A stretch of 62,420 nt of DNA. It comes from Bacteroidales bacterium. GTDB lineage: Bacteria; Bacteroidota; Bacteroidia; Bacteroidales; UBA932. Position 1 is the stretch's first letter; every line of letters starts with the position of its first letter. A program made the position numbers and the translations under genes. Below, piece by piece: positions 286 to 18,617 of the stretch. The notes under the pieces are model-generated. The model was not told the origin of the DNA and did not search any database. It saw only the letters and a list, made by a program, of their open reading frames with translations. The DNA lies in NCBI GenBank assembly GCA_017554335.1, contig JAFZIO010000035.1, forward strand, positions 1 to 62,420, read 5' to 3'.

Positions 286-1062
286 ATGAAAAAGCTTATT
301 CTTTCCGCCCTTATGGCAGCAGTTCTCTGCCTTAATCTTCAGGCCTGGGGCGGCCTGGGACACAGAACCGTAATAGCCGTTGCCCAGCGCCATCTTACAG
401 AAAAGACCAAGGCCAACATAGCCCAATACTTCGACTACGACCTTAAGCAGGATGCCGTCTGGATGGACAAACACCGCAAAGACGAGCCCATCGCATACAC
501 CACATCCTGGCATGTTTACAACGTAGACGAGAACCATAACTACGATCCCAATCCCCGCCTGGAAAAGGGCGACGCAATACATGCACTGCATATTGCAGAT
601 TACAACCTGAGCCATTACAAGGAGCTCAGCGACTCAGCCGTGGTGATGAACGTGCGCATGCTCATACACTTCGTGGGCGACATGCACTGCCCCGTCCACT
701 CCTACTTCCCCGGCCCCAGGAACTTCTGGCCCTGCAAGCTTAACGGAAAAGAGTACAACAGCTTCCACGCTTTATACGACGGAATGCCCGAACTTCTCTG
801 GCCCGGAGCCGACCCCGACGAACTTGCTGCACAGCTGGACAACTGCAACGCCTGCCAGCGCAAGAAAATCGCGCGCGGAAACCCCTACGACTGGGCCAAG
901 TCCAGCGGCGACCGCAACGCCTGCATATATGAGATTAACGCACCACTGACCGAGGATCTCGATCCCGACACGGTAGAAAAATCCCGCGAGGTGGTTTCTC
1001 TCCAGCTTCGTGACGCCGGGTACCGCCTCGCGGTTCTTCTGAACAAGTATTTCGGAAAATAG
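286..1062 (+). CDS. S1/P1-type nuclease, secreted
   Basis: A zinc-dependent single-strand nuclease or 3'-nucleotidase of the S1/P1 family (258 aa), presumably periplasmic and used for nucleic acid scavenging. The first 19 or so residues form a signal peptide whose cleavage after LQA would leave Trp as the mature N-terminus (WGGLGH), which is the first zinc ligand in this family. Further ligands are visible in order: the DAVWMD Asp, SWHVYN His, the HFVGDMHCPVH cluster, and FHALYD. The open frame extends upstream to 85, but the promoter box at 255 and the signal peptide favour ATG 286 (ATG 277 is also possible). It ends 3 bp from the convergent dipeptidyl peptidase III gene. All metal ligands appear present, so an active enzyme is likely. 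Confidence 0.9.
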   Translation: MKKLILSALMAAVLCLNLQAWGGLGHRTVIAVAQRHLTEKTKANIAQYFDYDLKQDAVWMDKHRKDEPIAYTTSWHVYNVDENHNYDPNPRLEKGDAIHALHIADYNLSHYKELSDSAVVMNVRMLIHFVGDMHCPVHSYFPGPRNFWPCKLNGKEYNSFHALYDGMPELLWPGADPDELAAQLDNCNACQRKKIARGNPYDWAKSSGDRNACIYEINAPLTEDLDPDTVEKSREVVSLQLRDAGYRLAVLLNKYFGK

Positions 1063-1065
1063 TTA

Positions 1066-3054
1066 CTACAGAATACCGTATTTCTTGCCGTATTCGAGCA
1101 TCTGACCCAGATAATCGTCCGTGTAGCGGATTTCGTAATCGGTAATAACGCCGGACTTCTCCACCGGAACGATTTCAGGATTGATAAAACCACCGTAAGG
1201 TTTAAGGTTAAGGGCTGCGTAGCGGTCCTTAACTTCTTTATGCAGCACGGGGTCTATATTCACGGCGTAAGTCTCCACCAGAGCCTTGCCAGCTGCATAG
1301 TCCCCCTCGGACTTGATGCGCTGCACCTCGGCCAGCAGTTTGCCGAAGAGGCCGCGGAGGGCATCATAATCGTTCACCACAAAGTAAGTCTTGCCGTCGC
1401 GGACCTTCTTCTCTATGACCTTGTTCTCCGCACCCTGCTGCAGGCACCATTCGGCAATAAGCTTGCGGTCCTGCATATGGGCCTCGGTATTCGGGCGGCC
1501 GAGCTCGACACGGTTGAACTGCACCATGAGGCCGTTGCGGATGAAGCTGTCGTACTCCGCCTTGTAGGCCTCGGCATCGGGCATGATGCCAAGTTCCACG
1601 AGTTTCTGGTCGGCAGCATAATAGAGGCCGAACAGGTCGGCGCGGGCCTCCTCCAAAGTTGACGAGAACTCTCCCATGGCGGAGCTGGAAACGCCCTTCA
1701 GCAGCTGTCCGGAGCCATGTCCGAGGCATTCGTGAAGGTCGGTATGAATCTCGCCGGCATAGGAGCCGTACTTCTTGGAACGGGCGATTTCCGCATCGTC
1801 CCAGGCGAACTCGTTCAGCACGCTGGCAGGCTGCTCCTCTGCGGAATAGTCGTAGGCGTGGGAGATATTGGCAATGGTAACGCTCTTGGAGCCATGGTCG
1901 CGGCGTATCCAGTCGGCGTTGGGCAGATTGATGCCGATAGGGGTTGCAGGGTAGGCATCTCCCGCCAGACAGACGGCGTTGATGACCTTAGCGCTCACTC
2001 CCTTGACCTTTGCCTTCTTGAAACGGGGATCAACCGGGGAGTTGTCCTCGAACCACTGGGCGTTGGCGCTCAGGATGGCCGAACGCTCGGAGGCCTTGAG
2101 GTCCTTGATATTGACATGACCTTCCCATGAGCCCTTGCGGCCAAGAGGGTCGTTGTAATCCTCGACGAAGCCGTTTACGAAGTCAACGGTGCCTATGGTA
2201 TCCTTTACCCATTCCACATTGAATTCATCCCACTTGCGGAGGTCGCCGCTGCGGTAGTACTCTATCAGCAGGGCAAGGGCCCGCTTCTGGATGTCGTTCT
2301 CCGCCACCCTGCGGGCAAGCTCCAGCTCGCCGCATATCTTCTCGATGGCAGGACCGTAGATGCCGCCCACTTTCCAGGGTTTCTCCACCACCACGCCGTC
2401 TTCCTTGACCACTTTGGTATTGAGGCCGTATGAAATAGGCTTGCGATCCTTGGGGTCGGCAATTGAAGCGTAGTATGCCTCGACCTCGTCGCGTGTCACC
2501 CCTTCGTAGAAATTGACGGAAGAGCTCTCCACAATATCGCCGTCTGCGGCGGTACTGCGGCGCTGGGGGCAAACGGTTGGATCATAGGCATACTTGACCA
2601 GGAAACCCGCCTCTTCCGAACGTCCTACGGCATCAAGCAGCTTTTCGAAATAAGCCGGCTCACAGCCCGGGAAGAATTTGTCTTCTGCATAATGATGATG
2701 TATACCGTTGCTGAAGAACAGCCTCTTGGCGTATTCGGTAAACGCTTCGAATTCACTGCATTTGCGGTCTCCGGCATAATTCTCCAGAATATCCTCAACG
2801 GCATGGCGCAGCTGGAGGTTCCAACGGCAGTTCTGGTCCCAGAGAATGTCCCGTCCCCATTTTGCCGCCTCGGCAAGGTGGTAAGCATATTCCTTCTGCT
2901 GAAGGCTCAGCTCTTCCCAGCCGGGCACCTGGTAACGGATCACCTTTACATCGGCGAACTGGTCTACGGTATACTTGAATTCAGCATTCTTATTGCCGCA
3001 TCCTGCAGCGAGCATAGCGGCAGAGACAAACATTGTCATTCTTAAAAGCCTCAT
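1066..3054 (-). CDS. Dipeptidyl peptidase III (M49), lipoprotein
   Basis: A zinc metallopeptidase of family M49 (662 aa) that removes dipeptides from the N-terminus of short peptides. It carries HECLGH at residues 441-446 and EEARAD at 468-473, the two-part zinc site; the Cys-containing HECLGH form is the one known in Bacteroides DPP III. The N-terminus (MFVSAAMLAAGC) is a lipoprotein signal, so the enzyme probably sits in the periplasm or at a membrane surface. It is the last gene of a minus-strand run and begins 2 nt after the glutamate racemase stop. In that context it could trim peptides released from muropeptides, but general peptide catabolism is equally plausible. Length and motifs are normal for the family. 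Confidence 0.92.
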   Translation of the reverse strand: MRLLRMTMFVSAAMLAAGCGNKNAEFKYTVDQFADVKVIRYQVPGWEELSLQQKEYAYHLAEAAKWGRDILWDQNCRWNLQLRHAVEDILENYAGDRKCSEFEAFTEYAKRLFFSNGIHHHYAEDKFFPGCEPAYFEKLLDAVGRSEEAGFLVKYAYDPTVCPQRRSTAADGDIVESSSVNFYEGVTRDEVEAYYASIADPKDRKPISYGLNTKVVKEDGVVVEKPWKVGGIYGPAIEKICGELELARRVAENDIQKRALALLIEYYRSGDLRKWDEFNVEWVKDTIGTVDFVNGFVEDYNDPLGRKGSWEGHVNIKDLKASERSAILSANAQWFEDNSPVDPRFKKAKVKGVSAKVINAVCLAGDAYPATPIGINLPNADWIRRDHGSKSVTIANISHAYDYSAEEQPASVLNEFAWDDAEIARSKKYGSYAGEIHTDLHECLGHGSGQLLKGVSSSAMGEFSSTLEEARADLFGLYYAADQKLVELGIMPDAEAYKAEYDSFIRNGLMVQFNRVELGRPNTEAHMQDRKLIAEWCLQQGAENKVIEKKVRDGKTYFVVNDYDALRGLFGKLLAEVQRIKSEGDYAAGKALVETYAVNIDPVLHKEVKDRYAALNLKPYGGFINPEIVPVEKSGVITDYEIRYTDDYLGQMLEYGKKYGIL

Positions 3055-3056
3055 TT

Positions 3057-3803
3057 CTATATGATTGTGAATAGTTTTCTCAAAGTTGCATCAGGGCCCG
3101 AGGCAAGCAGTTCTACGCCCGGAGCCGGGTCTCCCAAAGGCACGCCTGCCGTTTTCAGAACGTCTGCCAGCCTCCTTGCCACGGCGGGTGCCGGATCGAT
3201 GAAGCGGACGTCCGCAGGTGCTATGCGACGCATCAGCGGCAGAAGGAAGGGATAATGGGTGCAGCCCAGGACTATAGTGTCCGCTCCCGCTTCCAGCAGC
3301 GGCTCCAGGCTGGCGCGCACCACAGACTCGGCGTGCGGGCTGTCCAGGTCCAGGCTTTCCACAAGCTCCACGAATCCCTGCCCGACGCGCTCGACTATAC
3401 GTACCGCATCTGCATACTGGCCCTTGGTATTGAGGTATTTGGCCGCCCTGAGGGTGCCGGCCGTAGCAAGCACTCCGACGACTCCGCTGCGTGTGCCGCT
3501 GGCCGCCGGCTTCACCGCCGGTTCCATCCCCACGAAGGGCACGGAGTATTCCGCCCTGAGGCTGGCTATGGCAGCTGCCGTTGCGGTATTGCAAGCAACC
3601 ACCACTGCGGCAGCCCCCTTTGAAAGCAGCAAATCCGTGACGGCCCTGCTGCGGGCGGTCACGAATTCCGCTGTCTTTTCTCCGTACGGACAATAAGCGT
3701 TGTCCGAGAAGTATATATAACGTTCATCAGGGAGAATCTTCCGAATCTCCCTGAGAACTGAAAGGCCGCCTGAGCCGGAATCGAATACCCCGATTACCGC
3801 CAT
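3057..3803 (-). CDS. murI: Glutamate racemase
   Basis: Converts L-glutamate to D-glutamate for peptidoglycan stem peptides; a cytosolic cofactor-independent enzyme of 248 aa. The family landmarks are all present: GVFDSGSGG near the N-terminus, the first catalytic Cys in VACNTATA, and the second in LGCTHYPFL. The open frame runs back to 3824, but the start at 3803 (MAVIGVFDSG) matches the family and lies 1 nt after the stop of the upstream gene, so translation is probably coupled. Its place after NamZ and an AmpG-like permease ties D-Glu supply to cell-wall turnover. Confidence 0.95.
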   Translation of the reverse strand: MAVIGVFDSGSGGLSVLREIRKILPDERYIYFSDNAYCPYGEKTAEFVTARSRAVTDLLLSKGAAAVVVACNTATAAAIASLRAEYSVPFVGMEPAVKPAASGTRSGVVGVLATAGTLRAAKYLNTKGQYADAVRIVERVGQGFVELVESLDLDSPHAESVVRASLEPLLEAGADTIVLGCTHYPFLLPLMRRIAPADVRFIDPAPAVARRLADVLKTAGVPLGDPAPGVELLASGPDATLRKLFTII

Positions 3804-3804
3804 A

Positions 3805-4998
3805 TTATTCAGCCAGTTGTCCAAGAACTTCGAAGCAGGCTTTGCCGTCTTCGGTAACTGTCATCTGGTAAACGGTGTCGTCTACCTTGTAATAGGTGTT
3901 GCCTTCGAATTCGAATATCTCGTAATCATCGGGCAGGGTATCCACCAGGGCGCCTGCAGGAGGCACGATTACCACATACTGTCCGTCTTCACCCTTGATG
4001 TAGAAAACTCCGTCGTTATAGAAGTACTCGGTGCCTTCAGCAGCATAACTGCGTATCAGGTTGAGTGACTTTGCCACGGGGGCCGAGGTCTCTTCGGTCA
4101 GTGCATTCAGGGCGATAGCCGTAAGGACGGCATCTGCCAGAGGAGTGAACACGTAGCCGAAAGGAGGACGGCAGACCCAGTAACGGCCGGCGTAGTAGCG
4201 GTACCAGATATCATCCCAGAAATAATAGTCTATGCCGTGATAGACCCTATGGATGTAGTGGGGAGGCGGAGCAAGCAGGTAGTGGCCGTAGCAGTGGTGG
4301 CCATGATGGCTGAACCTTATCGGGCTGCCATGGAGTTCGCGATGGCGAGCAGGACGGGGTGCGTGATAACCGGGATGATGGTTTACATGCACGCGGCCCA
4401 TGTGTGCAGGTGCCGGTCTGTGACCTTCGGCATAAGGACGGGCGCCGGGTGCCGGCCTGGGTGCCACATGTCCGGAAGGACGGTGACCTCCGTTGGGGTG
4501 ACCGCCGTTGGAAGGACGTACGGCAACGTGGCCTGAGGAATGGTGGTTACTGCCCGAGTGGCCCGAAGGACGCTGAACGTCGCCGCTGTGGCTGCTGCCG
4601 GCAGACGGATGGTGCGCCGTTGCTCCGTCGTGCGAAGGACGATGGTCGGAAGCGCTGCTGCCGCTGTGCTTGTTGCCGCCGGAATGACTGCTGCCGACGC
4701 TGCCGCTGTGACTGCTGCCGGAGGAGCGGCCGATGCTGCTTCCGCCTGCAGGACGGTCGAGGCTGCGGCTGGCCGGGGAGCTGTGATGGCTGTGGCTGCT
4801 GCCGATGGATGCGGAACTGCTGGAGCGGCTTGGGCTGCTGCTGGAGTGGCTGGGACCGCTATTGCTGTATGAGTGGGAGGCGCTGGAGTGGGAAGCACTG
4901 CCATGCCCGGAAGAGTGGCCACGAGACTGGGCACCGAGAGGGAGAGCGAAGATGGCGGCTGCCGTCATCAATGCTGCGAGTCTGATCAAGTGTTTCAT
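3805..4998 (-). CDS. Secreted Ser/His-rich DUF6515-like protein
   Basis: A 397-residue exported protein. After a signal peptide (cleavage near LGAQ) residues about 24-235 are low-complexity Ser/His/Gly repeats (SHSGS, GHSSG, HHSS) shading into Pro/His/Arg. The C-terminal half is ordered, with a Tyr/Trp-rich block (DYYFWDDIWYRYYAGRYWVC), a hydrophobic stretch PLADAVLTAIALNAL, and paired YFYNDGVFY and TYYKVDDTVY motifs that recall DUF6515. Function is unknown. The His density suggests metal binding or interaction with an anionic surface polymer. It sits between namZ (11 nt) and murI (1 nt), so it is co-transcribed with wall-recycling genes and could be a periplasmic or envelope-associated factor. 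The DUF assignment is from motif resemblance only. Confidence 0.7.
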   Translation of the reverse strand: MKHLIRLAALMTAAAIFALPLGAQSRGHSSGHGSASHSSASHSYSNSGPSHSSSSPSRSSSSASIGSSHSHHSSPASRSLDRPAGGSSIGRSSGSSHSGSVGSSHSGGNKHSGSSASDHRPSHDGATAHHPSAGSSHSGDVQRPSGHSGSNHHSSGHVAVRPSNGGHPNGGHRPSGHVAPRPAPGARPYAEGHRPAPAHMGRVHVNHHPGYHAPRPARHRELHGSPIRFSHHGHHCYGHYLLAPPPHYIHRVYHGIDYYFWDDIWYRYYAGRYWVCRPPFGYVFTPLADAVLTAIALNALTEETSAPVAKSLNLIRSYAAEGTEYFYNDGVFYIKGEDGQYVVIVPPAGALVDTLPDDYEIFEFEGNTYYKVDDTVYQMTVTEDGKACFEVLGQLAE

Positions 4999-5009
4999 AA
5001 GTCAGTGGT

Positions 5010-6263
5010 TTAACGATAAATGTAGTACTTTTCCGACAAGCTCCGGAAATCGTCGACATCTGCTGTCCAGTAGCCAAGAATATCGGAGACCCGGAAACGC
5101 TTGCTGAACTCCTTACTGACAAAATCCGTTCCACAAACCTTATTAAACATGGAAATTCTGTCCGGAGACAGTTCAAAAGGGTTCTTTTTGTATAAATCAT
5201 ACACCGCCTGCATTACGTAGAACTGTATCAACGTAAGCGGTGCAGCCTCGTAATCCGTGAAGTAATACTGCACTCCGTGAATGAGCTTGCGGGCGCTTCC
5301 GCCGTAGAAAGGTGTGTAATGTACCGCCCTCCATGCCACTCCGGGCACCTTGTAGCTGTCCAGTTTCGCCTTCAGCGAATCGGCATCTATCCACTCTGCG
5401 GCAAAGGCGTCGAAGGGGATGGTGTAGCCTATGCCTATGTTCAGGTATCCGCTGAACTCTCCTACAAGACCGGAGCATGGATAGCAGATGGCGCTGCGGG
5501 GATAAGGGATGTTGGGAGAGGGCATCACCCAGGGGAGGCCGGTCTTGTCGTAAGTCATGCTGCGTTCCCAGCCCTCCATGGGCACGACGGTCAATTCGCA
5601 CTTCAGCGGCTCCTCGTTGCCCTTCTGCCCGCGGTTAAGGCCTTCCTCGTTGATCAGGGTCGCGACCTCCCCCACCGTGAGGCCGTAGATATAAGGGATA
5701 CGGTACTGGCTCACGTAGGAATAGTATCCGTCACGCACCACGCTGCCTTCGACTTTCAGGCCACCGAGCGGGTTGGGGCGGTCGAGCACCATAACCGGTA
5801 TGCCCATCGCCGCGCAGGTGCGCATGGCAAGGCCCAGGCAGCTGATGAAGGTATAGGAACGGGTGCCGACGTCCTGGATGTCGTACACCAGAATGTCGAT
5901 GCCCTTAAGCATCTCCTGCGTGGGCTGACGGGTGGCTCCGTAGAGGGAATGGACGGGCAGTCCGGTGGCCTCGTCTTTGCCCGACTCCACCTTGCCGCCG
6001 GCCCAGATGTCGCCGCGCACCCCATGCTCAGGGGCGTACAAGGCCACCAGGTTCACATTTTCGTTAAGTATGTCGATGGTGGTGCGGAGCTGCCTGTCGA
6101 CGCCGCTGGGGTTGGTCAGCAGACCGACGCGCTTGCCTTGCAGACCTTCGAAACCACGGTCCCGCAGGACTTCTATGCCCGGTTTGACCTGGGCGGCGAG
6201 GTTTATTCCGACGGTAAGCGCCGCCGCACAAAGAAGGTGACGAAGAAGGTTGCGATACAACAT
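5010..6263 (-). CDS. namZ: NamZ-type exo-beta-N-acetylmuramidase (DUF1343, GH171)
   Basis: A 417-aa exported protein of the DUF1343 family; the characterised member NamZ releases terminal MurNAc from the non-reducing end of peptidoglycan fragments. Visible family blocks are RVGLLTNPSGVD, YAPEHGVRG, DIQDVGTRSYT and LDRPNPLGG. The N-terminus (LLCAAALTVGINLAAQ) is a signal peptide, so it acts in the periplasm. The open frame extends to 6485, but ATG 6263 is the one that places the signal peptide correctly. That start lies 61 nt inside the end of the upstream permease gene, in another frame. A second homologue is at 17343-18617. Confidence 0.88.
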   Translation of the reverse strand: MLYRNLLRHLLCAAALTVGINLAAQVKPGIEVLRDRGFEGLQGKRVGLLTNPSGVDRQLRTTIDILNENVNLVALYAPEHGVRGDIWAGGKVESGKDEATGLPVHSLYGATRQPTQEMLKGIDILVYDIQDVGTRSYTFISCLGLAMRTCAAMGIPVMVLDRPNPLGGLKVEGSVVRDGYYSYVSQYRIPYIYGLTVGEVATLINEEGLNRGQKGNEEPLKCELTVVPMEGWERSMTYDKTGLPWVMPSPNIPYPRSAICYPCSGLVGEFSGYLNIGIGYTIPFDAFAAEWIDADSLKAKLDSYKVPGVAWRAVHYTPFYGGSARKLIHGVQYYFTDYEAAPLTLIQFYVMQAVYDLYKKNPFELSPDRISMFNKVCGTDFVSKEFSKRFRVSDILGYWTADVDDFRSLSEKYYIYR

Positions 6264-7468
6264 ATCATTACGAGAATAAAGAATCCGACATAACCGAGGG
6301 CTTCCTGCAAGTATCCGGCCACAAGCCCAGGAAGCATCATGGAAAGGGCCATGAAGGCGGTGCAGATGGCATAGTGGGAGGTCTTGAGAGGCCCCTGGGA
6401 GAAGTGCATCATGTAGAGCATGTAGGCCGAGAATCCGAAGCCGTAGCCGAACTGGTCCAGCACGACGCAGCCGCCGACTATCCATATGTTCTCAGGCTGG
6501 GCTATACTCATGAAGAGGTAAACGGAACAAGGTAAAGCCAGGGCCAAGGCCATGGGCCACAGGCATTTGCGCAAGCCGAGACGGGCCGCTGCAAGGCCTC
6601 CGAGTATACCTCCGGCAAGCAGGGCAACCACTCCGAAGGTGCCGTAAACAATGCCGTACATGTCTGTACTGAAACCGAGTCCTCCGGCCTCTGCGGGATC
6701 CTTGAAGAAGGGGAAAAGCATTTTTACGGAGAATGCCTCGGGCAGGCGGTACAGCAGCATGAAAGCTATGGCCAGCCAAACGCCCTTCTTCTTGAAGAAG
6801 GAAGCGAAAGCTCCTCCGAATTCCTTCATAACGTCCGAAGCGCTCTTAACTTCCCCGGCGCTCCTGTCGTCGGAAGGCTTGGGGAGGGCAAACAGATGAT
6901 AGATATTGAAGACGCCCAGGATGACGGCGGAAATAATCATGGTAAGCGACCATGCCCTGGGAATATCGCCCATACGCCTCTCAAGTATGCCTGCGAGCAC
7001 TACCAGCACTCCCTGGCCGAAAACGGAGGCTATGCGGTAAAAGGTACTTCTGATACCCACAAAGGCAGACTGCTGCTTCTTGTTGAGCGCTATCATGTAG
7101 AAGCCGTCCGCCGCTATGTCGTGGGTGGCGGAAGCGAATGCGGCTATTATAAACAATATGAGCGTTATGCTGAAGGTACTCAGCTGCACGCTCGCGGCCG
7201 TAAGGGCTATTGTGGCCATCATAACCAGCTGCATGGAGAGTATCCACCAGCGCTTGCTGCGGAAGATGTCTACGAAGGGGCTCCAGAGGGGTTTTACCAC
7301 CCATGGAATACTGATGAGGCTGGTAAGCAGGGCCAGGGTGCCGTTGTCCATGCCCATATCCTTGAACATTATCAGGGATATGGTGTTGACTATGAAATAT
7401 GGCAGGCCCTCCACGAAATACAGCGTGGGGATCCAGAGCCAGGGTGTCTTGCTATTGAATGTCCGCAT
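6203..7468 (-). CDS. AmpG-like MFS permease (muropeptide importer candidate)
   Basis: A 421-aa inner membrane protein of the major facilitator superfamily with about 12 hydrophobic segments. Its opening (PWLWIPTLYFVEGLPYFIVN) and the following block with PWVVKPLWSPFVD resemble AmpG, the importer of anhydro-muropeptides. The start at ATG 7468 follows family length; the open frame upstream to 7531 overlaps the previous gene. It overlaps the DUF4922-SpoIID gene by 17 nt and namZ by 61 nt, so the three are translated as a block. Substrate is inferred from neighbours: NamZ would supply MurNAc or MurNAc-peptides for uptake. Specificity cannot be read from the sequence. Confidence 0.82.
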   Translation of the reverse strand: MRTFNSKTPWLWIPTLYFVEGLPYFIVNTISLIMFKDMGMDNGTLALLTSLISIPWVVKPLWSPFVDIFRSKRWWILSMQLVMMATIALTAASVQLSTFSITLILFIIAAFASATHDIAADGFYMIALNKKQQSAFVGIRSTFYRIASVFGQGVLVVLAGILERRMGDIPRAWSLTMIISAVILGVFNIYHLFALPKPSDDRSAGEVKSASDVMKEFGGAFASFFKKKGVWLAIAFMLLYRLPEAFSVKMLFPFFKDPAEAGGLGFSTDMYGIVYGTFGVVALLAGGILGGLAAARLGLRKCLWPMALALALPCSVYLFMSIAQPENIWIVGGCVVLDQFGYGFGFSAYMLYMMHFSQGPLKTSHYAICTAFMALSMMLPGLVAGYLQEALGYVGFFILVMICCIATFFVTFFVRRRLPSE

Positions 7469-9548
7469 CTGTGTAGTAATGCTTAAGAATCTCTTTGTAG
7501 CCGAAGCCCTTTGCGGCCATGACGGCGGCACCTATCTGGCAAAGGCCTACCCCGTGGCCCCAGCCGTGGCCTTTGAGCGTTATATTGTCGCCTTCGATTA
7601 TGACTTCGAAGTTGGAGCTCTTGAGGTGTGAGGTACTCAGGGCACGGCGTATCGCCAACTCCTTGCCAATTACTTCGGTATGTTTGGAACCCACTATACG
7701 CAAGTATTTGATACGGCCGGACGCACCCCTCTCCAGCGCCTCCAGCGCCTCTATTTCGCCGAAATCTTTGCCGGTGCGGCTGCGTACCAGTTCTGAGAGT
7801 TCCTGCCTTGTGTAGCGCTGCTCCCAGTCATGGAAGTCGGAGGTCTCAAGGTCGTAGTCGTTCAGCACCTGGGAGAGGATTGCGGAGTCGTGGCAGTCGC
7901 ACCATGGGTCTTCGACACTTTGAAGATACGGGTAATCTTTATCTTCCCAACAGGTACTGAAGATCTCTGTCCTGCCGCCGCAGCACTTAGAGAATCTGGT
8001 GTCGCAGACCTGACCATCGTAGGTCAGGATTTGCCCCCAGGTCTGGTCTATGGCCTTACGGACATTCTCTCCCACGGCGGGCGTCAGGCCCTGATAGCGC
8101 TGGCAGTGGTCGTCCGCACAAACGTCGTAGCGTTCGTGTGGGATGGCGGATCCGGCGGTCTCCGGATGCCTCCGGTCCTCAATTCGGGCGAGCAGCCAGC
8201 TGCGGGAGATTACGGCGTGCGCCTTCAGGAACTCCAGGGAGGCGTCGGCACGCATCTCGGAGGATATAACGCTGATGAGGTAGTCCTCGATGCCCACCTT
8301 GTTGATGGCGGTGATGCGCCCTCCCTCGACTATGAATTTGAGGGAGCCGGCGAATTTCTGGGTCTGAGTGCGCTGCCAGTGGAAGTCGATGCCTATGGGC
8401 ACGTTACGCAATATGAACGACGGCTCGGCAAACAGGGTCGACGGGGTTACGGAGTCGAAGTAGAGCTCGTCGTAGAGGGCTCCGTTGTAATTAATCCGGC
8501 CGTCTTTGACACTCACCCTCTGCGGGCCGGCGCCGTCCGAGATAATCTCGAACTCTATTTCTCCGGCGGACATTATTCCCACCTCGATATCCTGCTGGCT
8601 GCGGGTCAGGCGGGAGTCAATCATGGCCTCGTCTTCCCCGCTTACGCTCACTTCCGAGAGCATCTCTTCCAGCTGGGAGGGTGTGGCCTTGTCGAAATCC
8701 TCCTCCCGCGGGGCCACGAACACTCCGGCCATTTCGGCAGCGCCGGGGCCTATAGTGAGGTGGTCGGGCCCGTCCGTATAAAAATGGTGGGACCTGAGTT
8801 CAGTGCGCAGGACCACCATCACACGGTACTCGTTGCACTCGGGCTTGAACCAGGCGTAAAGGTTGAAGCGGGGCTCGAGGCCGGGGTCGGCAACGGGACA
8901 GCAGTCCAGGAACTGGTAGAACAGCTTGGCCAGCGATTTGGTGGTCGATGCCTTGATGCACCAGACGCCGCGGGTAAACTTGCGATAGTGGTACATACGG
9001 GCGTCCTTCACCTGCGACAGGGGGTCACCGGGAGCGTCCAGGAACGCGTCTACAGCCGCTTCCAGCGGCAGGGACCAGCGGGGCACGGCCTGGAAATGCA
9101 GGTGGTCGGGAGCCGATGCTCCGGCCCTGGGTCCATTATAGTAGACGGTATAGTTCTGGTAGTTCCAGGCAAAGTCCAGCATGTCGGGGAGATGGTGCCA
9201 GATGGCCTGCGGGAGATGCTCGGAACGGGCAATCACCAGGTGGTTGTTGAAGATGGGGTAAGGGTTTACCTGGATGTTGTACATGCGCCCCTTGCGGCCC
9301 TCGAAAGGCAGGTGGAACTGCTCCGGGGGACGGTTCTTCTCGCACAGGAAACAGGGGCGCGCGGCCAGCGTGGCCTCGTCGATCTTTGCCGTACTGGAAA
9401 TGATGCGGCTGGGGTTGAACTGAATCTTCGCCTCCAGTCCGCCCACTTCGACTGTACGGACGCGCATGGACTTGAGGGCACGGAAATTGGCTGCGGCCAG
9501 GGGCCATATGGACAGCTGGTCTTTTATGAACTTGCTGATCTGGTCCAT
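7452..9548 (-). CDS. DUF4922 (GalT/HIT-like) and SpoIID fusion protein
   Basis: A 698-aa two-part protein. Residues 1 to about 310 match DUF4922 and show nucleotidyl-transferase or phosphorylase signs: Cys66-x-x-Cys69 and an HLHFQ motif (149-153) like the HxHxQ of GalT and APA1 enzymes. From about residue 320 a SpoIID/LytB domain follows, with the catalytic Glu (E431 in ISSEM), KAHAVISRSW, and the end signature HGWGHGVGLCQIGA. SpoIID enzymes cleave denuded glycan strands. No signal peptide or membrane segment is visible at the N-terminus, which is odd for a wall-cleaving domain. The ATG at 9548 overlaps the Nudix stop as TAATG. The longer frame to 9656 is rejected because it runs through the Nudix gene. 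Confidence 0.85.
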   Translation of the reverse strand: MDQISKFIKDQLSIWPLAAANFRALKSMRVRTVEVGGLEAKIQFNPSRIISSTAKIDEATLAARPCFLCEKNRPPEQFHLPFEGRKGRMYNIQVNPYPIFNNHLVIARSEHLPQAIWHHLPDMLDFAWNYQNYTVYYNGPRAGASAPDHLHFQAVPRWSLPLEAAVDAFLDAPGDPLSQVKDARMYHYRKFTRGVWCIKASTTKSLAKLFYQFLDCCPVADPGLEPRFNLYAWFKPECNEYRVMVVLRTELRSHHFYTDGPDHLTIGPGAAEMAGVFVAPREEDFDKATPSQLEEMLSEVSVSGEDEAMIDSRLTRSQQDIEVGIMSAGEIEFEIISDGAGPQRVSVKDGRINYNGALYDELYFDSVTPSTLFAEPSFILRNVPIGIDFHWQRTQTQKFAGSLKFIVEGGRITAINKVGIEDYLISVISSEMRADASLEFLKAHAVISRSWLLARIEDRRHPETAGSAIPHERYDVCADDHCQRYQGLTPAVGENVRKAIDQTWGQILTYDGQVCDTRFSKCCGGRTEIFSTCWEDKDYPYLQSVEDPWCDCHDSAILSQVLNDYDLETSDFHDWEQRYTRQELSELVRSRTGKDFGEIEALEALERGASGRIKYLRIVGSKHTEVIGKELAIRRALSTSHLKSSNFEVIIEGDNITLKGHGWGHGVGLCQIGAAVMAAKGFGYKEILKHYYTDADIQ

Positions 9549-10045
9549 TACAAAAGCGACAGGAGGCTCTCCTTTATCATAGGGAACTCCTGCTCGAAGT
9601 TGGGGGTTATTATGTTCTTCCCGAAGGATGCCTCCAAGGTGGGGATGTCCCACCATTTGCCTTCAGCCACCTCATCCCCGTCGGGCTTGAGTTCGAAGTT
9701 GCCTACTGCGGCAAAGACGTTTACCAGTTCCCTCTCGGTATTCGATTCGAATACATATGAGCGTATGGGCAGCGGATTGAAGTCGTAGAAGCCAAGCTCC
9801 TCCCCCGCCTCGCGGAACAGCGCCTCGCGGAGGTACTCGCCGTAATTGACGTGGCCGCCTACCGCCGTATCCCAATATAGCGGGAGAAGGGATTTACTGG
9901 CGCTTCTGCGCTGGAGATATATCCTTGAGTATCTGTCTATTATGTGAAGGTGGACCACAGGGTGCAGCAACTTGCTGCCGTGGTGCACCCAAGAGCGCGA
10001 GGCACGGGCAATAACGGTCCCCGTGGGTTCGACTATGGGGAGCAT
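9548..10045 (-). CDS. Nudix hydrolase
   Basis: A 165-aa cytosolic pyrophosphohydrolase of the Nudix superfamily, with a complete Nudix box (G-x5-E-x7-REAGEELGF) inside AVGGHVNYGE and beyond. The N-terminal part (LLHPVVHLHI) resembles the isopentenyl-diphosphate isomerase-like Nudix group common in Bacteroidales. The start at 10045 (MLPIVEPTG) fits that group. A longer start at 10108 would add 21 residues and overlap the upstream gene by 23 nt; either is possible. Its stop overlaps the start of the DUF4922-SpoIID gene by one base. A role in cleaving nucleotide sugars (for example UDP-linked wall precursors) is suggested only by context. Confidence 0.87.
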   Translation of the reverse strand: MLPIVEPTGTVIARASRSWVHHGSKLLHPVVHLHIIDRYSRIYLQRRSASKSLLPLYWDTAVGGHVNYGEYLREALFREAGEELGFYDFNPLPIRSYVFESNTERELVNVFAAVGNFELKPDGDEVAEGKWWDIPTLEASFGKNIITPNFEQEFPMIKESLLSLL

Positions 10046-10085
10046 CTCCCTGCCGGCCTTGCTGCCGGAGGCAAGTGGGGCGACG

Positions 10086-10898
10086 CTAACCGGGTAAACC
10101 AAGTCCATCTTCGGGATAATTGAGGATTTCGAGTTCTTCCGGGGTGTAGAGGATCTTGTCCGTGAAGTCCGGGGCTATGCGGGACAAGGCGAAGAAGCCG
10201 GCGAGGAACAGCACGGCCGCCGCCACAATGCCGAGGGCCCATATGACCGGTTTGCTGAGTTTGCGAGGCTTTGCCGCCGGAGCTTTTGCATCGCGGGCGG
10301 GAGCCCCGGTGGCGGGCCGCCGGACAGACGTTTCTGCGGATTCTGACACATTTTCGGCCGTTTTGCGTCCGTTTGCCTGTTTTTCCTCCCGTTCTGACAC
10401 ATTATCGGCGGTTTTGTTCCCGGCGGTACCGGCACTGGCGAGGGCGGCAATACCCGTAAGGGTCGCCAGGGCGGCATTATGGGTCTTCAGGGAAACCGGC
10501 GAGAGACCGCAGGCTTCCGGGGAAATGTCGAGCGACTCATCGGCCACGAAGAAGAAATGGTTCTCCCTGGTGGCACGGAGGCGGCCCAGGCCGGGCAGGT
10601 CTACGCTTTTCTGACGGAGCAGCTCGTCCTTGAGATCCTGAAGGAACTGGTTCAGGACGGCCACGGCCTCTTCCGGGGCCTGAGGATTGGATCCCGCATA
10701 GAGATCCTGCAAAAGGCTGTCGTCAGAGAGCTTTCCGGTGAAGGAGAGACGCCTGTATGGAGGGTTGATGGTGTATCCGCGGTCTGAAAAACTGGCAGGC
10801 ATGTCCTCGGCCACGAAAGTACCCAGGCCGGGCAGGCTCAGGCTGTCGTGGTCGAGCATCAGCTCGCCAATCATACCGGACAAAAATTCCACATCCAT
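10086..10898 (-). CDS. HU/CCDC81-like membrane protein without SPOR domain
   Basis: A 270-aa protein that begins with an HU-fold, CCDC81-like module: two copies of an LPGLG motif (SLPGLGTF near 21-28, DLPGLGRL near 100-107), as in the paired HU-CCDC81 domains of Bacteroidota. Residues 140-215 are a Lys/Ala/Glu-rich linker with an imperfect repeat (NKTADNVSE, RKTAENVSE). One membrane helix follows at about 217-238 (VIWALGIVAAAVLFLAGFF), then only some 30 residues. Relatives usually end in a peptidoglycan-binding SPOR domain, which is missing here although the reading frame ends cleanly. It is first in the wall-recycling run. ATG 10898 is chosen because a promoter box lies just upstream. Confidence 0.72.
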   Translation of the reverse strand: MDVEFLSGMIGELMLDHDSLSLPGLGTFVAEDMPASFSDRGYTINPPYRRLSFTGKLSDDSLLQDLYAGSNPQAPEEAVAVLNQFLQDLKDELLRQKSVDLPGLGRLRATRENHFFFVADESLDISPEACGLSPVSLKTHNAALATLTGIAALASAGTAGNKTADNVSEREEKQANGRKTAENVSESAETSVRRPATGAPARDAKAPAAKPRKLSKPVIWALGIVAAAVLFLAGFFALSRIAPDFTDKILYTPEELEILNYPEDGLGLPG

Positions 10899-10905
10899 AA
10901 CAAGG

Positions 10906-10913
10906 CAAAAATA
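10906..10913 (-). promoter_or_regulatory. -7 box of the peptidoglycan-recycling operon
   Basis: TATTTTTG on the minus strand matches TAnnTTTG and ends 7 bases before the ATG at 10898. The transcript would have almost no 5' leader. No other good box is visible down to 1066, so the eight genes may share this promoter. Confidence 0.45.
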
Positions 10914-10932
10914 CAAAAAAATCGGGAAAAAA

Positions 10933-10963
10933 TTTGCAATTCTAAAAATTCAGCGTAACTTTG
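10933..10963 (+). promoter_or_regulatory. tRNA-Asn promoter
   Basis: TTTG at 10933-10936, 19 bases, then TAACTTTG at 10956-10963. This is a full match to the Bacteroidota -33/-7 arrangement, about 30 bases before the tRNA. Confidence 0.7.
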
Positions 10964-10994
10964 CAGTCCCATCAGAAATGAAGGGAAAACATAT

Positions 10995-11068
10995 TCCTCC
11001 TTAGCTCAGTTGGTTAGAGCACCTGACTGTTAATCAGGGGGTCCTGGGTTCAAGTCCCCGAGGGGGAG
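10995..11068 (+). tRNA. tRNA-Asn (GTT)
   Basis: A complete cloverleaf: acceptor TCCTCCT pairs with AGGGGGA (one G-U), the anticodon arm is CCTGA/TCAGG around CTGTTAA giving anticodon GTT, and the T arm carries TTCAAGT. CCA is encoded at 11069-11071. Its 3' end and terminator are repeated 1352 bp downstream. Confidence 0.95.
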
Positions 11069-11083
11069 CCAAAGCGGACAAAT
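11063..11083 (+). repeat. Direct repeat, left copy (attL candidate)
   Basis: 21 bases identical to 12415-12435. The copy covers the last six bases of the tRNA-Asn body, CCA and the 5' arm of the terminator. Confidence 0.75.
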
Positions 11084-11116
11084 CATCGGAAACGACGGTT
11101 TGTCCGCTTTCTTTTT
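11071..11116 (+). terminator. Terminator of tRNA-Asn
   Basis: Perfect 12-bp arms AAAGCGGACAAA (11071-11082) and TTTGTCCGCTTT (11099-11110), with further pairing around a GAAA loop, followed by CTTTTT. Confidence 0.85.
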
Positions 11117-16707: not shown

Positions 16708-17346
16708 ATGAAAAAGCTCATCATCCCCCTTCTCAAGAGTCTGGGCACCAACGACCTGGACACGGCCCTCGAACTCGAAGGAACCCGTTTTTCCGTTGAC
16801 CAGTGCAACTGGCCGGAAGAGTTCCCCTACTCACCTTTCTGCAACGGACGCATAGCACGTACGGAAGACTACATTGTCGTCGACTTCCGCGTAAGCGGCC
16901 TTGACCTTAAGGTTCAGTATCTGGAAGACGGAGGATGCTCCTGGGAAGACAGCTGCTGCGAGATTTTCCTGCAGGTCCCCGGCAAAGACGAGTACTGCAA
17001 TTTCGAGGTGAACGCCGCCGGTTTCATGACCGCAGCGCGCGGCACGGGCCGTGGCGACCGCGTTTCGCTCAGCCCCGAGGAGTTCTCCACCATAGTCCGT
17101 ATGGCCGACATAAAAGGCCCTCAGGATTATGCCGGAGGCGTATGGTCATGGAGGGTTATCCTGATGATTCCCTTCGCGCTGCTCGGACTTGACCCGGAAA
17201 ACCTTCCGGCGGCTCTCCGCGGCAATATCTACAAGTGCGGCGACAAAACTGCGCATCCGCACTTCCTGAGCTGGAACCCCGTAGGAACCCCCAGCCCCGA
17301 CTTCCACCGTCCCGAATACTTCGGAGAACTCATCATATCTGAATGA
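16708..17346 (+). CDS. CBM9-like carbohydrate-binding protein
   Basis: A 212-aa protein with no evident signal peptide. The pattern of WEDSCCEIFLQVPGKDEYCNFEVNA, followed by a WSWRVILMIPFALLGL block and NIYKCGDKTAHPHFLSWNP, is that of the CBM9-like beta-sandwich domain found alone in many Bacteroidota proteins. It starts 1 nt after the queF stop and overlaps the NamZ homologue as ATGA, so it belongs to the same transcript. Apparent lack of export is odd for a carbohydrate-binding protein, and the function is unknown. A sugar ligand derived from peptidoglycan would fit the next gene but is inference. Confidence 0.72.
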   Translation: MKKLIIPLLKSLGTNDLDTALELEGTRFSVDQCNWPEEFPYSPFCNGRIARTEDYIVVDFRVSGLDLKVQYLEDGGCSWEDSCCEIFLQVPGKDEYCNFEVNAAGFMTAARGTGRGDRVSLSPEEFSTIVRMADIKGPQDYAGGVWSWRVILMIPFALLGLDPENLPAALRGNIYKCGDKTAHPHFLSWNPVGTPSPDFHRPEYFGELIISE

Positions 17347-18617
17347 AACGCCTTGCGTCCCTCCTGCTTCTGGCGTCCGTCTGGATGTCGGCCTCCTGCT
17401 CGTCCCGCGTGATCCTGGGAGACGAGCGCTTCGATGTCTATCTGCCGATGCTGGAAGGTAAACGGGTGGCAATCTACAGCAACCCCAGCGGCATAGTGGG
17501 CGACAAAGTCGAAGGCTGGTGCCTGAAGGGCGGCGAAGAAGTCACCGAGGCCACTGCAGGCATACCTTTCGGCCAGCCGTCAGACCCCTCCAGCCCGGTG
17601 GTCTACGGGCCGCACCTGCTGGACGTACTGCTGGAGAAAGGCGTGAACGTCAGCGCCATCTTCTCTCCGGAGCATGGCTTCAGAGGCACTGCCGACGCCG
17701 GCGAACTGGTGTCGTCGGAGGTGGATGCCAAAACCGGCGTGCCCATCCTGTCGCTCTACAGCAAGCATTCCATGATGCCGGACGAGGCTGACATGGACAA
17801 GTTCGACCTGCTGCTGGTGGACATACAGGACGTGGGACTGCGCTACTACACCTACTACGTCACGCTTCAGCACCTGATGGATGCCTGTGCCGTCTATGGC
17901 AAGCAGGTGGTTATCCTGGACCGTCCCAACCCCAACGGATTCTACGTCGACGGTCCCATCCTGGACATGAAGTACAAGTCCGGAATCGGCTCCCTGCCCA
18001 TCGCTATGGTACACGGCATGACTTTGGGCGAGCTGGCTCTGATGATGAACGGGGAGGGCTGGCTGAAGGACGGGCTAAAGTGCGACCTCAGCGTGGTGCC
18101 TTGCCTGAATTACGACCACAGCATGCACTGCACCCTTATACTGCCCCCGTCCCCGAACCTGAAGGACATGAGGTCTGTTTATCTTTACAGCTCCACCTGC
18201 TTTTTCGAGGGCACGGAGGTGACCGCCGGACGCGGAACCCAGTTCCCGTTTGAGGTTTACGGCCACCCTGCGATGGAAGACCGCGGTTTCTCCTTCACCC
18301 CGCACAGCATCCCGGGAGCGAAGAAGCCCCGCTATATGGACAGGGAGTGCTTCGGAGTCGACCTCCGGAACAAGCCTCTGGCAGAAATCTGGGCGGAGCA
18401 CATCAATCTGGAGTACCTGAAAGACGCCCTGGCACACATGCCTGCCGACAGCGCCTTCTTCATGAAGAACAATCACTTCGAGCTCCAGGTTGGCGTTCCT
18501 TACGTGCGCGAAATGATACTCGCACGCCGCCCCGTGGAAGATATCCGTTCAATGTGGCAGGATGACGTTGCCCGCTTCCGCGAACAGCGACGGCCTTATC
18601 TACTTTACGAAGAGTAA
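17343..18617 (+). CDS. Second NamZ-like exo-N-acetylmuramidase (DUF1343)
   Basis: A 424-aa lipoprotein (SVWMSASCSS gives the lipobox) of the same DUF1343/GH171 family as the protein at 5010-6263. Shared blocks are RVAIYSNPSGI, FSPEHGFRG, DIQDVGLRYYT and LDRPNPNG, but the two are clearly divergent, so this is an old paralogue and not a recent copy. The start overlaps the CBM9-like gene by 4 nt (ATGA). In bacteria with several NamZ proteins the paralogues may differ in substrate length or peptide content. It ends 6 nt from the convergent CDF transporter gene. Placement in a preQ1-controlled operon is unexpected. Confidence 0.85.
   Translation: MKRLASLLLLASVWMSASCSSRVILGDERFDVYLPMLEGKRVAIYSNPSGIVGDKVEGWCLKGGEEVTEATAGIPFGQPSDPSSPVVYGPHLLDVLLEKGVNVSAIFSPEHGFRGTADAGELVSSEVDAKTGVPILSLYSKHSMMPDEADMDKFDLLLVDIQDVGLRYYTYYVTLQHLMDACAVYGKQVVILDRPNPNGFYVDGPILDMKYKSGIGSLPIAMVHGMTLGELALMMNGEGWLKDGLKCDLSVVPCLNYDHSMHCTLILPPSPNLKDMRSVYLYSSTCFFEGTEVTAGRGTQFPFEVYGHPAMEDRGFSFTPHSIPGAKKPRYMDRECFGVDLRNKPLAEIWAEHINLEYLKDALAHMPADSAFFMKNNHFELQVGVPYVREMILARRPVEDIRSMWQDDVARFREQRRPYLLYEE

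Follow-up and report, generated by a model that had tools for sequence, protein, structure and literature searches.

Eight adjacent minus-strand genes in a 62,420-nucleotide stretch of DNA from a Bacteroidales bacterium (contig JAFZIO010000035.1 of assembly GCA_017554335.1, lineage UBA932; the whole stretch is hereafter the window) probably form a derived version of the Bacteroidales AmpG salvage operon. In this operon, a SpoIID domain that we predict to be cytosolic would process the disaccharides imported by the permease AmpG, through a reaction that we infer. The genes run from 10898 to 1066 in the open reading frame (ORF) listing and carry, in order, the Pfam domains HU-CCDC81, NUDIX, DUF4922+SpoIID, MFS/BT1, NamZ, DUF6515, Asp/Glu racemase, and M49. 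An original prediction, made from the letters of the window, had described all eight as one peptidoglycan salvage and recycling operon. Its gene positions, strand, and domain names agree with the ORFs and Pfam, and the salvage operon stands with respect to the core SpoIID–AmpG–NamZ, which matches an operon of Tannerella forsythia (PMC5388701); the full eight-gene pathway does not stand. The core is not novel: it is also the core of Tanf_08345-08385, an operon that T. forsythia transcribes as one unit. What we add is a variant of it, in which SpoIID is linked to AmpG, is predicted to be cytosolic, and is fused to DUF4922. Published papers are cited throughout by their PubMed Central numbers, from the portions available to us.

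A SpoIID domain fused to a phosphorylase-like domain

The third gene, for which the original prediction had named only the SpoIID domain, encodes a fusion protein: residues 1 to ~315 are DUF4922 and resemble Ap4A phosphorylase, and residues ~316-698 are SpoIID. Its features are:

7452..9548, minus strand: DUF4922+SpoIID fusion protein, 698 amino acids (aa) (Pfam)
9090..9104, minus strand: HIT-type motif HLHFQ, residues 149-153, in the phosphorylase-like half
8256..8258, minus strand: predicted catalytic Glu431 in an SSEM motif, SpoIID half, aligned with the SpoIID Glu of 4rwr and 5i1t
8103..8138, minus strand: predicted zinc site HERYDVCADDHC, residues 471-482, with ligands H471-C477-H481-C482

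The SpoIID half fits the SpoIID fold and profile and shares its fold, its catalytic Glu, and its GHG motif with the SpoIIDs of Bacillus subtilis, B. anthracis (4rwr), C. difficile (5i1t), and Waddlia. The equivalent catalytic Glu is E88 in B. subtilis and E101 in C. difficile (PMC6635528, PMC6221140), and the zinc ligands are of the C. difficile type, in which they are H134/C140/H145/C146 (PMC6221140). Unlike the studied SpoIIDs, which are tied to sporulation or septation, the SpoIID of the window is linked to AmpG, shows neither a membrane anchor nor a signal peptide, and is joined to a phosphorylase-like domain.

The DUF4922 half has the HIT/Ap4A-phosphorylase fold and an HxHxQ-type motif, which we take to be a mark of HIT-type enzymes. 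It is ~16% identical to Ap4A phosphorylase Apa2 and the GalT-like HIT superfamily (4i5t, 1z84) and, unlike those enzymes, is linked to GT2 and wall salvage. Plant GDP-L-galactose phosphorylase belongs to the same superfamily (PMC9871823). We propose that this half is a nucleotide (sugar) phosphorylase of the HIT/Ap4A-phosphorylase fold that can be retained after SpoIID is lost. In the portions of the open-access literature available to us, we found nothing on a cytosolic SpoIID, a DUF4922–SpoIID protein, or the function of bacterial DUF4922; the term “cytoplasmic lytic transglycosylase” is used there for MltD of Cardinium (PMC12039267).

By hydropathy and inspection, the fusion protein has neither a hydrophobic N-terminus nor an internal membrane helix. 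Among stand-alone ampG-linked SpoIIDs, 77 of 88 have a methionine shortly before VG[IV] and open with the domain's first strand (L099, an exported SpoIID by our reading, was counted in the ampG-linked class via a short local match). Since such starts at the domain edge occur across many genera, a missed upstream start is improbable. These proteins contrast with another SpoIID class, which has signal peptides. With neither a signal peptide nor a helix, and with a HIT-type phosphorylase fold joined to it, the SpoIID of the window is more likely to act after import, and we predict that the fusion protein is cytosolic. The order of cleavage, release, and import that the original prediction had drawn, with SpoIID outside the cell, is therefore probably misplaced.

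Other SpoIID arrangements were also seen. The second, exported class (L095-L100, L103) has the GHG motif without the SSEM and H-x5-C-x3/4-HC motifs, and several of its members are flanked by unidentified genes of similar size. A single 1101-aa ORF in genome G330 (L074, 6851-10156) joins GT2, DUF4922, and SpoIID, and several ORFs separate it from AmpG. In genome G296 of the genus, SpoIID is a separate, unfused protein of 397 aa whose gene lies between those of Nudix and AmpG (L104, 8480-9673); the DUF4922 half has no match in this genome, which is 74% complete.

A conserved unit and its lineage-specific neighbours

We compared 74 gene neighbourhoods from the same genus, 20 from other families of the order, six from other classes, and 80 from named Bacteroidales, including Bacteroides, Phocaeicola, Tannerella, and Dysgonomonas. 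The named loci are the best 80 of 588 by similarity to Bacteroides ihuae SpoIID, so this set is biased towards loci having SpoIID. Genes were tallied with a simple ORF caller and BLAST with the window proteins (E 1e-5), in the same-strand run around a complete SpoIID. Loci with insufficient flanks were dropped: 16 of the 49 from the genus that have a complete SpoIID, 16 of the 80 named ones, and 11 of the 25 truncated or contig-cut ones; usable were 33 genus loci, 64 named loci, and nine of the 20 from the order's other families. Several counts are lower bounds, as overlapping ORFs hide some AmpG, NamZ, and MurI genes (for example, in L065 and L068).

The usable named runs contain GT2 (62), AmpG (61), DUF4922 (59), NamZ (49), and BadF kinase (45), and further XanLy (34), SSS (28), and MPPase (24). 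The nine loci from other families have AmpG (8), DUF4922 (5), GT2 (5), NamZ (4), and BadF (2). The genus runs contain Nudix (31), HU (29), AmpG (29), DUF6515 (24), NamZ (23), and MurI (10), and further TesA-like (10), GT2 (9), AspT-like (7), AmgK-like (5), MurU-like (5), and dipeptidyl peptidase III (DPP III; 3) genes. HU, Nudix, DUF6515, MurI, and DPP III had no BLAST match in any of the 64 named runs. In this search for adjacency, which the original prediction had proposed, all eight genes occur together in three genus loci (L064, L067, L175) and in no named locus, and we therefore rejected the eight genes as a conserved unit. By eye, L065 is probably a fourth locus carrying all eight.

The old conserved unit is GT2–DUF4922–SpoIID–AmpG–NamZ–BadF, and the window run is derived from it. 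HU-CCDC81, Nudix, DUF6515, MurI, and DPP III are lineage-specific neighbours, MurI in part of the genus and DPP III in the nearest relatives only. A dedicated supply of D-Glu by MurI is unsupported: beyond the ten loci with MurI in the run, the gene either points the other way or did not appear, and in L068 it is followed by prfB and fumarase genes (identified by eye). For a link of Nudix, HU-CCDC81, DUF6515, or DPP III to the wall, we found no evidence besides their position.

The T. forsythia operon Tanf_08345-08385 is one transcript by reverse-transcription PCR, is regulated by GppX, and has genes named xanthan lyase, gtf, gtf, lytB, ampG, ybbC, murT, murK, and murQ (PMC5388701). The order at this locus in strain ATCC 43037 (L193, on the contig named in that paper) is XanLy-GT2-DUF4922-SpoIID-AmpG-NamZ..BadF, by which the second gtf (Tanf_08355) would be DUF4922. 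Common to both organisms is SpoIID (lytB)–AmpG–NamZ (ybbC) in the same order on one strand, with DUF4922 ahead. The window AmpG is 48% identical to that of T. forsythia and sits in the same slot after SpoIID; identity and gene position together indicate that the two are probably orthologous.

The window run differs in that DUF4922 and SpoIID are a single protein, in having HU and Nudix upstream instead of GT2, and in ending with DUF6515, MurI, and DPP III instead of murT, murK, and murQ. These five genes are added to the T. forsythia-type core, while GT2, the xanthan-lyase-like gene, MurT, MurK, and MurQ are missing from the run; a GT2 gene, MurQ with a BadF kinase, and an AmgK/MurU-like pair are found elsewhere in the genome. 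The T. forsythia operon reads GT2 – DUF4922 – SpoIID/LytB – AmpG – NamZ – MurT – MurK – MurQ. In the derived form of the window lineage, DUF4922 and SpoIID are fused, GT2 and the kinase/etherase genes are at other places in the genome, and the run has gained five genes that are unrelated or loosely related to it.

The run could also be ordinary tight packing, in which housekeeping genes happen to sit beside the three-gene salvage core already known and nothing is new in mechanism; the missing signal peptide would then be a matter of annotation or unusual export. The lack of all five neighbours in the named runs agrees with this; however, stand-alone SpoIIDs begin at the first strand of the domain in many genera, and SpoIID is repeatedly fused to cytosolic-type enzymes. 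We consider this explanation very improbable.

Joint loss of SpoIID and AmpG within the genus

At a threshold of E <= 1e-20, AmpG had a match in 118 of the 151 genus genomes (window genome included) and none in 33. Counts were taken from per-genome rows and fetched loci, and 13 of the AmpG-negative genomes were identified by subtraction. Ten of the 33 have no DUF4922-SpoIID match either; in the other 23, SpoIID is truncated in 20 and cut by a contig end in three (G320, G379, G431). All truncated SpoIIDs stop about half way and lack the GHG region. Each of the 49 AmpG-positive genomes whose locus was fetched has a complete SpoIID (48 fused, and the unfused one of G296), as does the window; these 49 are the part of the 118 that was viewed in detail. 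On a DUF4922 tree that excluded three contig-edge rows, the SpoIID state changes four times and that of AmpG five times. The co-loss is a clean pattern with a small number of events.

The 21 truncated loci (20 genomes) have another residue at the aligned Glu position in 18 cases, Glu in two (L108, L143), and Asp in one (L141); that Glu was lost from every truncated SpoIID is thus ruled out. All four zinc ligands are retained in ten of the 21. Among the 24 rows scored as truncated, one contig-edge gene (L152) has both the Glu and the zinc motifs. The HxHFQ motif of DUF4922 is retained in 24 of the 25 truncated or contig-cut genus proteins. Truncated SpoIIDs (L107-L110, L115, L154, and others, at no fewer than three tree positions) often end at about the same point, shortly past a TWG motif, and the SpoIID N-terminal part that remains looks as though DUF4922 still needs it.

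These data bear on two other accounts of SpoIID. According to the first, SpoIID is exported and, as a lytic transglycosylase, produces the muropeptides that AmpG takes up, and the eight genes are one salvage pathway. The studied homologues of Clostridium and Chlamydiales act outside the membrane (PMC6221140, PMC6635528), sacculi are attacked by a lytic transglycosylase activity in cell extracts of T. forsythia (PMC7670621), and the co-loss would equally fit a periplasmic SpoIID producing the AmpG substrate. Nevertheless, the fused and stand-alone forms have no visible signal peptide, unlike the exported class and the operon neighbours, SpoIID lies C-terminal to a cytosolic-type phosphorylase fold, and the eight-gene set occurs in three of the 33 usable genus loci and none of the 64 usable named loci, which together make this account decidedly unlikely.

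In the second, GT2 and DUF4922 form a nucleotide-sugar pathway for some glycan, to which the SpoIID half contributes catalysis or binding, and its link to the wall is solely through the neighbouring AmpG and NamZ. GT2 and DUF4922 adjoin in three of the six other-class loci (L118, L120, L121), two of them without SpoIID, and are fused in L101, L227, L230, L244, and others; the persistence of HxHFQ in truncated proteins also fits. Against this, the C-terminal part of SpoIID tracks AmpG in the genus while DUF4922 stays where both are lost, and G296 keeps SpoIID and AmpG with no DUF4922 beside them. We regard this account as unlikely.

A possible route for imported wall fragments

If the SpoIID of the run is indeed a cytosolic enzyme of AmpG salvage, the flow of material may be as follows. 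In the periplasm, NamZ would trim N-acetylmuramic acid (MurNAc) off glycan ends, an activity that we assume from its family. AmpG would bring in the disaccharides of N-acetylglucosamine (GlcNAc) with 1,6-anhydro-MurNAc (anhMurNAc) or MurNAc, an import that others have shown in T. forsythia. In the cytosol, the SpoIID domain would most likely open the 1,6-anhydro ring or split the imported fragment, and the resulting MurNAc would pass to the AmgK/MurU-like pair or the BadF-kinase/MurQ pair of the window genome. We tentatively suggest that a cytosolic SpoIID acts in this way on imported GlcNAc-anhMurNAc in Bacteroidales, allowing reuse of MurNAc without AnmK.

T. forsythia needs AmpG for growth on wall fragments, and its AmpG imports GlcNAc-anhMurNAc and GlcNAc-MurNAc (PMC7670621). 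In the available text of that study, no AnmK is predicted for T. forsythia even though GlcNAc-anhMurNAc is used, and the processing of imported fragments is called an important question (PMC7670621). From sacculi, Waddlia SpoIID forms anhydro products, but with denuded glycan its products are mainly non-anhydro (PMC6635528), a pattern that suggests that water can resolve the reaction in the SpoIID fold; from these non-anhydro products we infer that SpoIID could open the ring of anhMurNAc.

Several observations weigh against a cytosolic SpoIID with this role. The absence of an export signal was judged by inspection and hydropathy. To our knowledge, no SpoIID opens an anhydro ring, and known SpoIIDs cleave the MurNAc-GlcNAc bond, not GlcNAc-MurNAc; a separate cytosolic glucosaminidase, which would be needed for GlcNAc-MurNAc, was not identified in our analysis. 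Three of the 64 usable named loci have SpoIID but no AmpG in the run, and L120, one of the six other-class loci, has AmpG, GT2, and DUF4922 with no SpoIID beside them. Within the genus, independent pairs on the tree number three in the same direction, none opposite, and one with no difference (sign test, p 0.25). Some truncated proteins keep Glu, have Asp in its place, or retain whole zinc sites, and genome G398 carries, besides a complete copy with AmpG, another copy that is truncated and has no AmpG next to it. AnmK coexists with AmpG and SpoIID in six of the 17 named genomes, and the AmgK- and MurU-like proteins both score under their NCBIfam cut-offs. In addition to the transglycosylase activity of its extracts, T. 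forsythia grows poorly on free anhMurNAc and less on anhydro-disaccharide digests than on MurNAc-disaccharide digests (PMC7670621). This restricted growth on anhydro sugars suggests that a processing step exists but is not efficient.

Recycling genes in the genus and the window genome

AnmK had no match in the window genome, in 116 of the 118 AmpG-positive genus genomes, or in 11 of the 17 named AmpG/SpoIID genomes, T. forsythia among the 11. A match was found in 13 of the 151 genus genomes, 11 of which, mostly from one clade, have a truncated SpoIID and no AmpG. We rejected the idea that AnmK substitutes for SpoIID and AmpG: although it occurs in 11 of 20 genomes with truncated SpoIID versus two of 118 AmpG-positive genomes, these come down to essentially one clade on the tree. 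The idea is further weakened by the varied contexts of AnmK in the loci viewed and by its presence in the six named AmpG/SpoIID genomes.

The window genome comprises 2.35 Mb in 75 contigs, of which the window is one, and is 87.6% complete. Its best GT2 homologue lies outside the run (contig C27:71549-72805). MurQ (NF003915, 355.6 bits, above the cut-off of 168; TIGR00274 below its own cut-off) adjoins a BadF-type kinase on contig C18. On contig C38:77000, an AmgK-like gene (61.4 bits; NCBIfam cut-off 550) is followed by a MurU-like gene (125.4 bits; cut-off 250), an adjacency resembling the AmgK-MurU recycling genes of Pseudomonas. This pair differs from that of Pseudomonas in both scores being below the cut-offs, in the RapZ C-terminal domain of the AmgK-like protein, and in that AnmK was not found. 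The RapZ C-terminal domain serves amino-sugar sensing in Escherichia coli. The pair lies inside the run in five usable genus loci, and the AmgK-like gene with RapZ followed by the MurU-like gene was also seen in L077 (3110-4525), L078, L111, and L133.

Amidase_2 (AmpD) had no match in the window genome, and the NagZ signature, in a form that we presume to be correct, was absent from the longest ORFs at the eight GH3 matches of this genome (at L271, that ORF lies on the strand opposite to the match, so the result holds for the remaining GH3 matches); both absences are weak because of the genome's incompleteness. AmpG proteins of 597-671 aa were seen in several families (L086, L088, L089, L090, L181, L185, L194, and others), and that of L089 has an extra stretch of ~200 aa between membrane helices that looks soluble by eye.

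Layout of the run and its remaining genes

The junctions from gene 1 to gene 8 are -23, -1, -17, -61, +11, +1, and +2 nt. Four thus overlap and three have gaps of 1 to 11 nt, so that the overlaps and small gaps of the original prediction hold but its range of 1 to 40 nt does not. This tight packing supports a probable single transcript for the eight genes. A scan of the minus strand over 900..11100 for TANNTTTG, which we take to be the Bacteroidetes -7 consensus, found its sole copy upstream of gene 1, so that the run itself contains no copy on that strand. A scan for E. coli-type promoters gave ten, compared with a mean of 8.1 (sd 2.8), and hence no excess. The promoter motif and the genes other than the fusion are:

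10906..10913, minus strand: Bacteroidetes -7-like promoter motif TATTTTTG, ending 7 bases short of the HU start codon; an ATTG lies 23 nt farther upstream
10086..10898, minus strand: HU-CCDC81 protein (PF18174/PF18175; Pfam), with one C-terminal hydrophobic stretch
9548..10108, minus strand: Nudix hydrolase (PF00293; Pfam)
6203..7468, minus strand: AmpG-like MFS muropeptide permease (Pfam; TIGR00901, E 1.5e-53)
5010..6263, minus strand: NamZ exo-beta-N-acetylmuramidase (NamZ_N and NamZ_C, both over the Pfam cut-off)
3805..4998, minus strand: DUF6515 Ser/His-rich protein with a hydrophobic N-terminus (Pfam)
3057..3803, minus strand: MurI glutamate racemase (TIGR00067, 195.9 bits, above the cut-off of 146.65)
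1066..3054, minus strand: M49 dipeptidyl peptidase III (Pfam), an apparent lipoprotein by eye

The permease scores 182 bits on TIGR00901, which does not reach the curated cut-off of 350. The N-terminus of NamZ is hydrophobic and is probably a signal peptide. A second NamZ (PF07075/PF20732) is encoded in the window at 16708-18617 on the plus strand, immediately after a CBM9_2 protein, and a third NamZ-like match lies on contig C54:6802-7116 of the same genome. A tRNA-Asn gene (10995-11071, plus strand) is found just upstream of the run. At the other end, the DPP III gene and an S1/P1 nuclease gene are convergent, with 3 nt between their stop codons (window 1062-1066), and the nuclease gene is retained beside DPP III in L067 and L175.

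Implications for wall recycling in Bacteroidales

SpoIID is a named candidate for the processing of wall fragments after import, with AmpG in its run in 61 of the 64 usable named loci, a set chosen by SpoIID similarity. If this role is true, it would supply the T. forsythia step that is described as unknown in the available text of PMC7670621. A wall-cutting fold would have been recruited to the cytosol, in the window lineage joined to a HIT-type phosphorylase in a single protein. A lytic-transglycosylase fold would then be intracellular, and part of Bacteroidales wall recycling would be unlike the schemes of E. coli and Pseudomonas.

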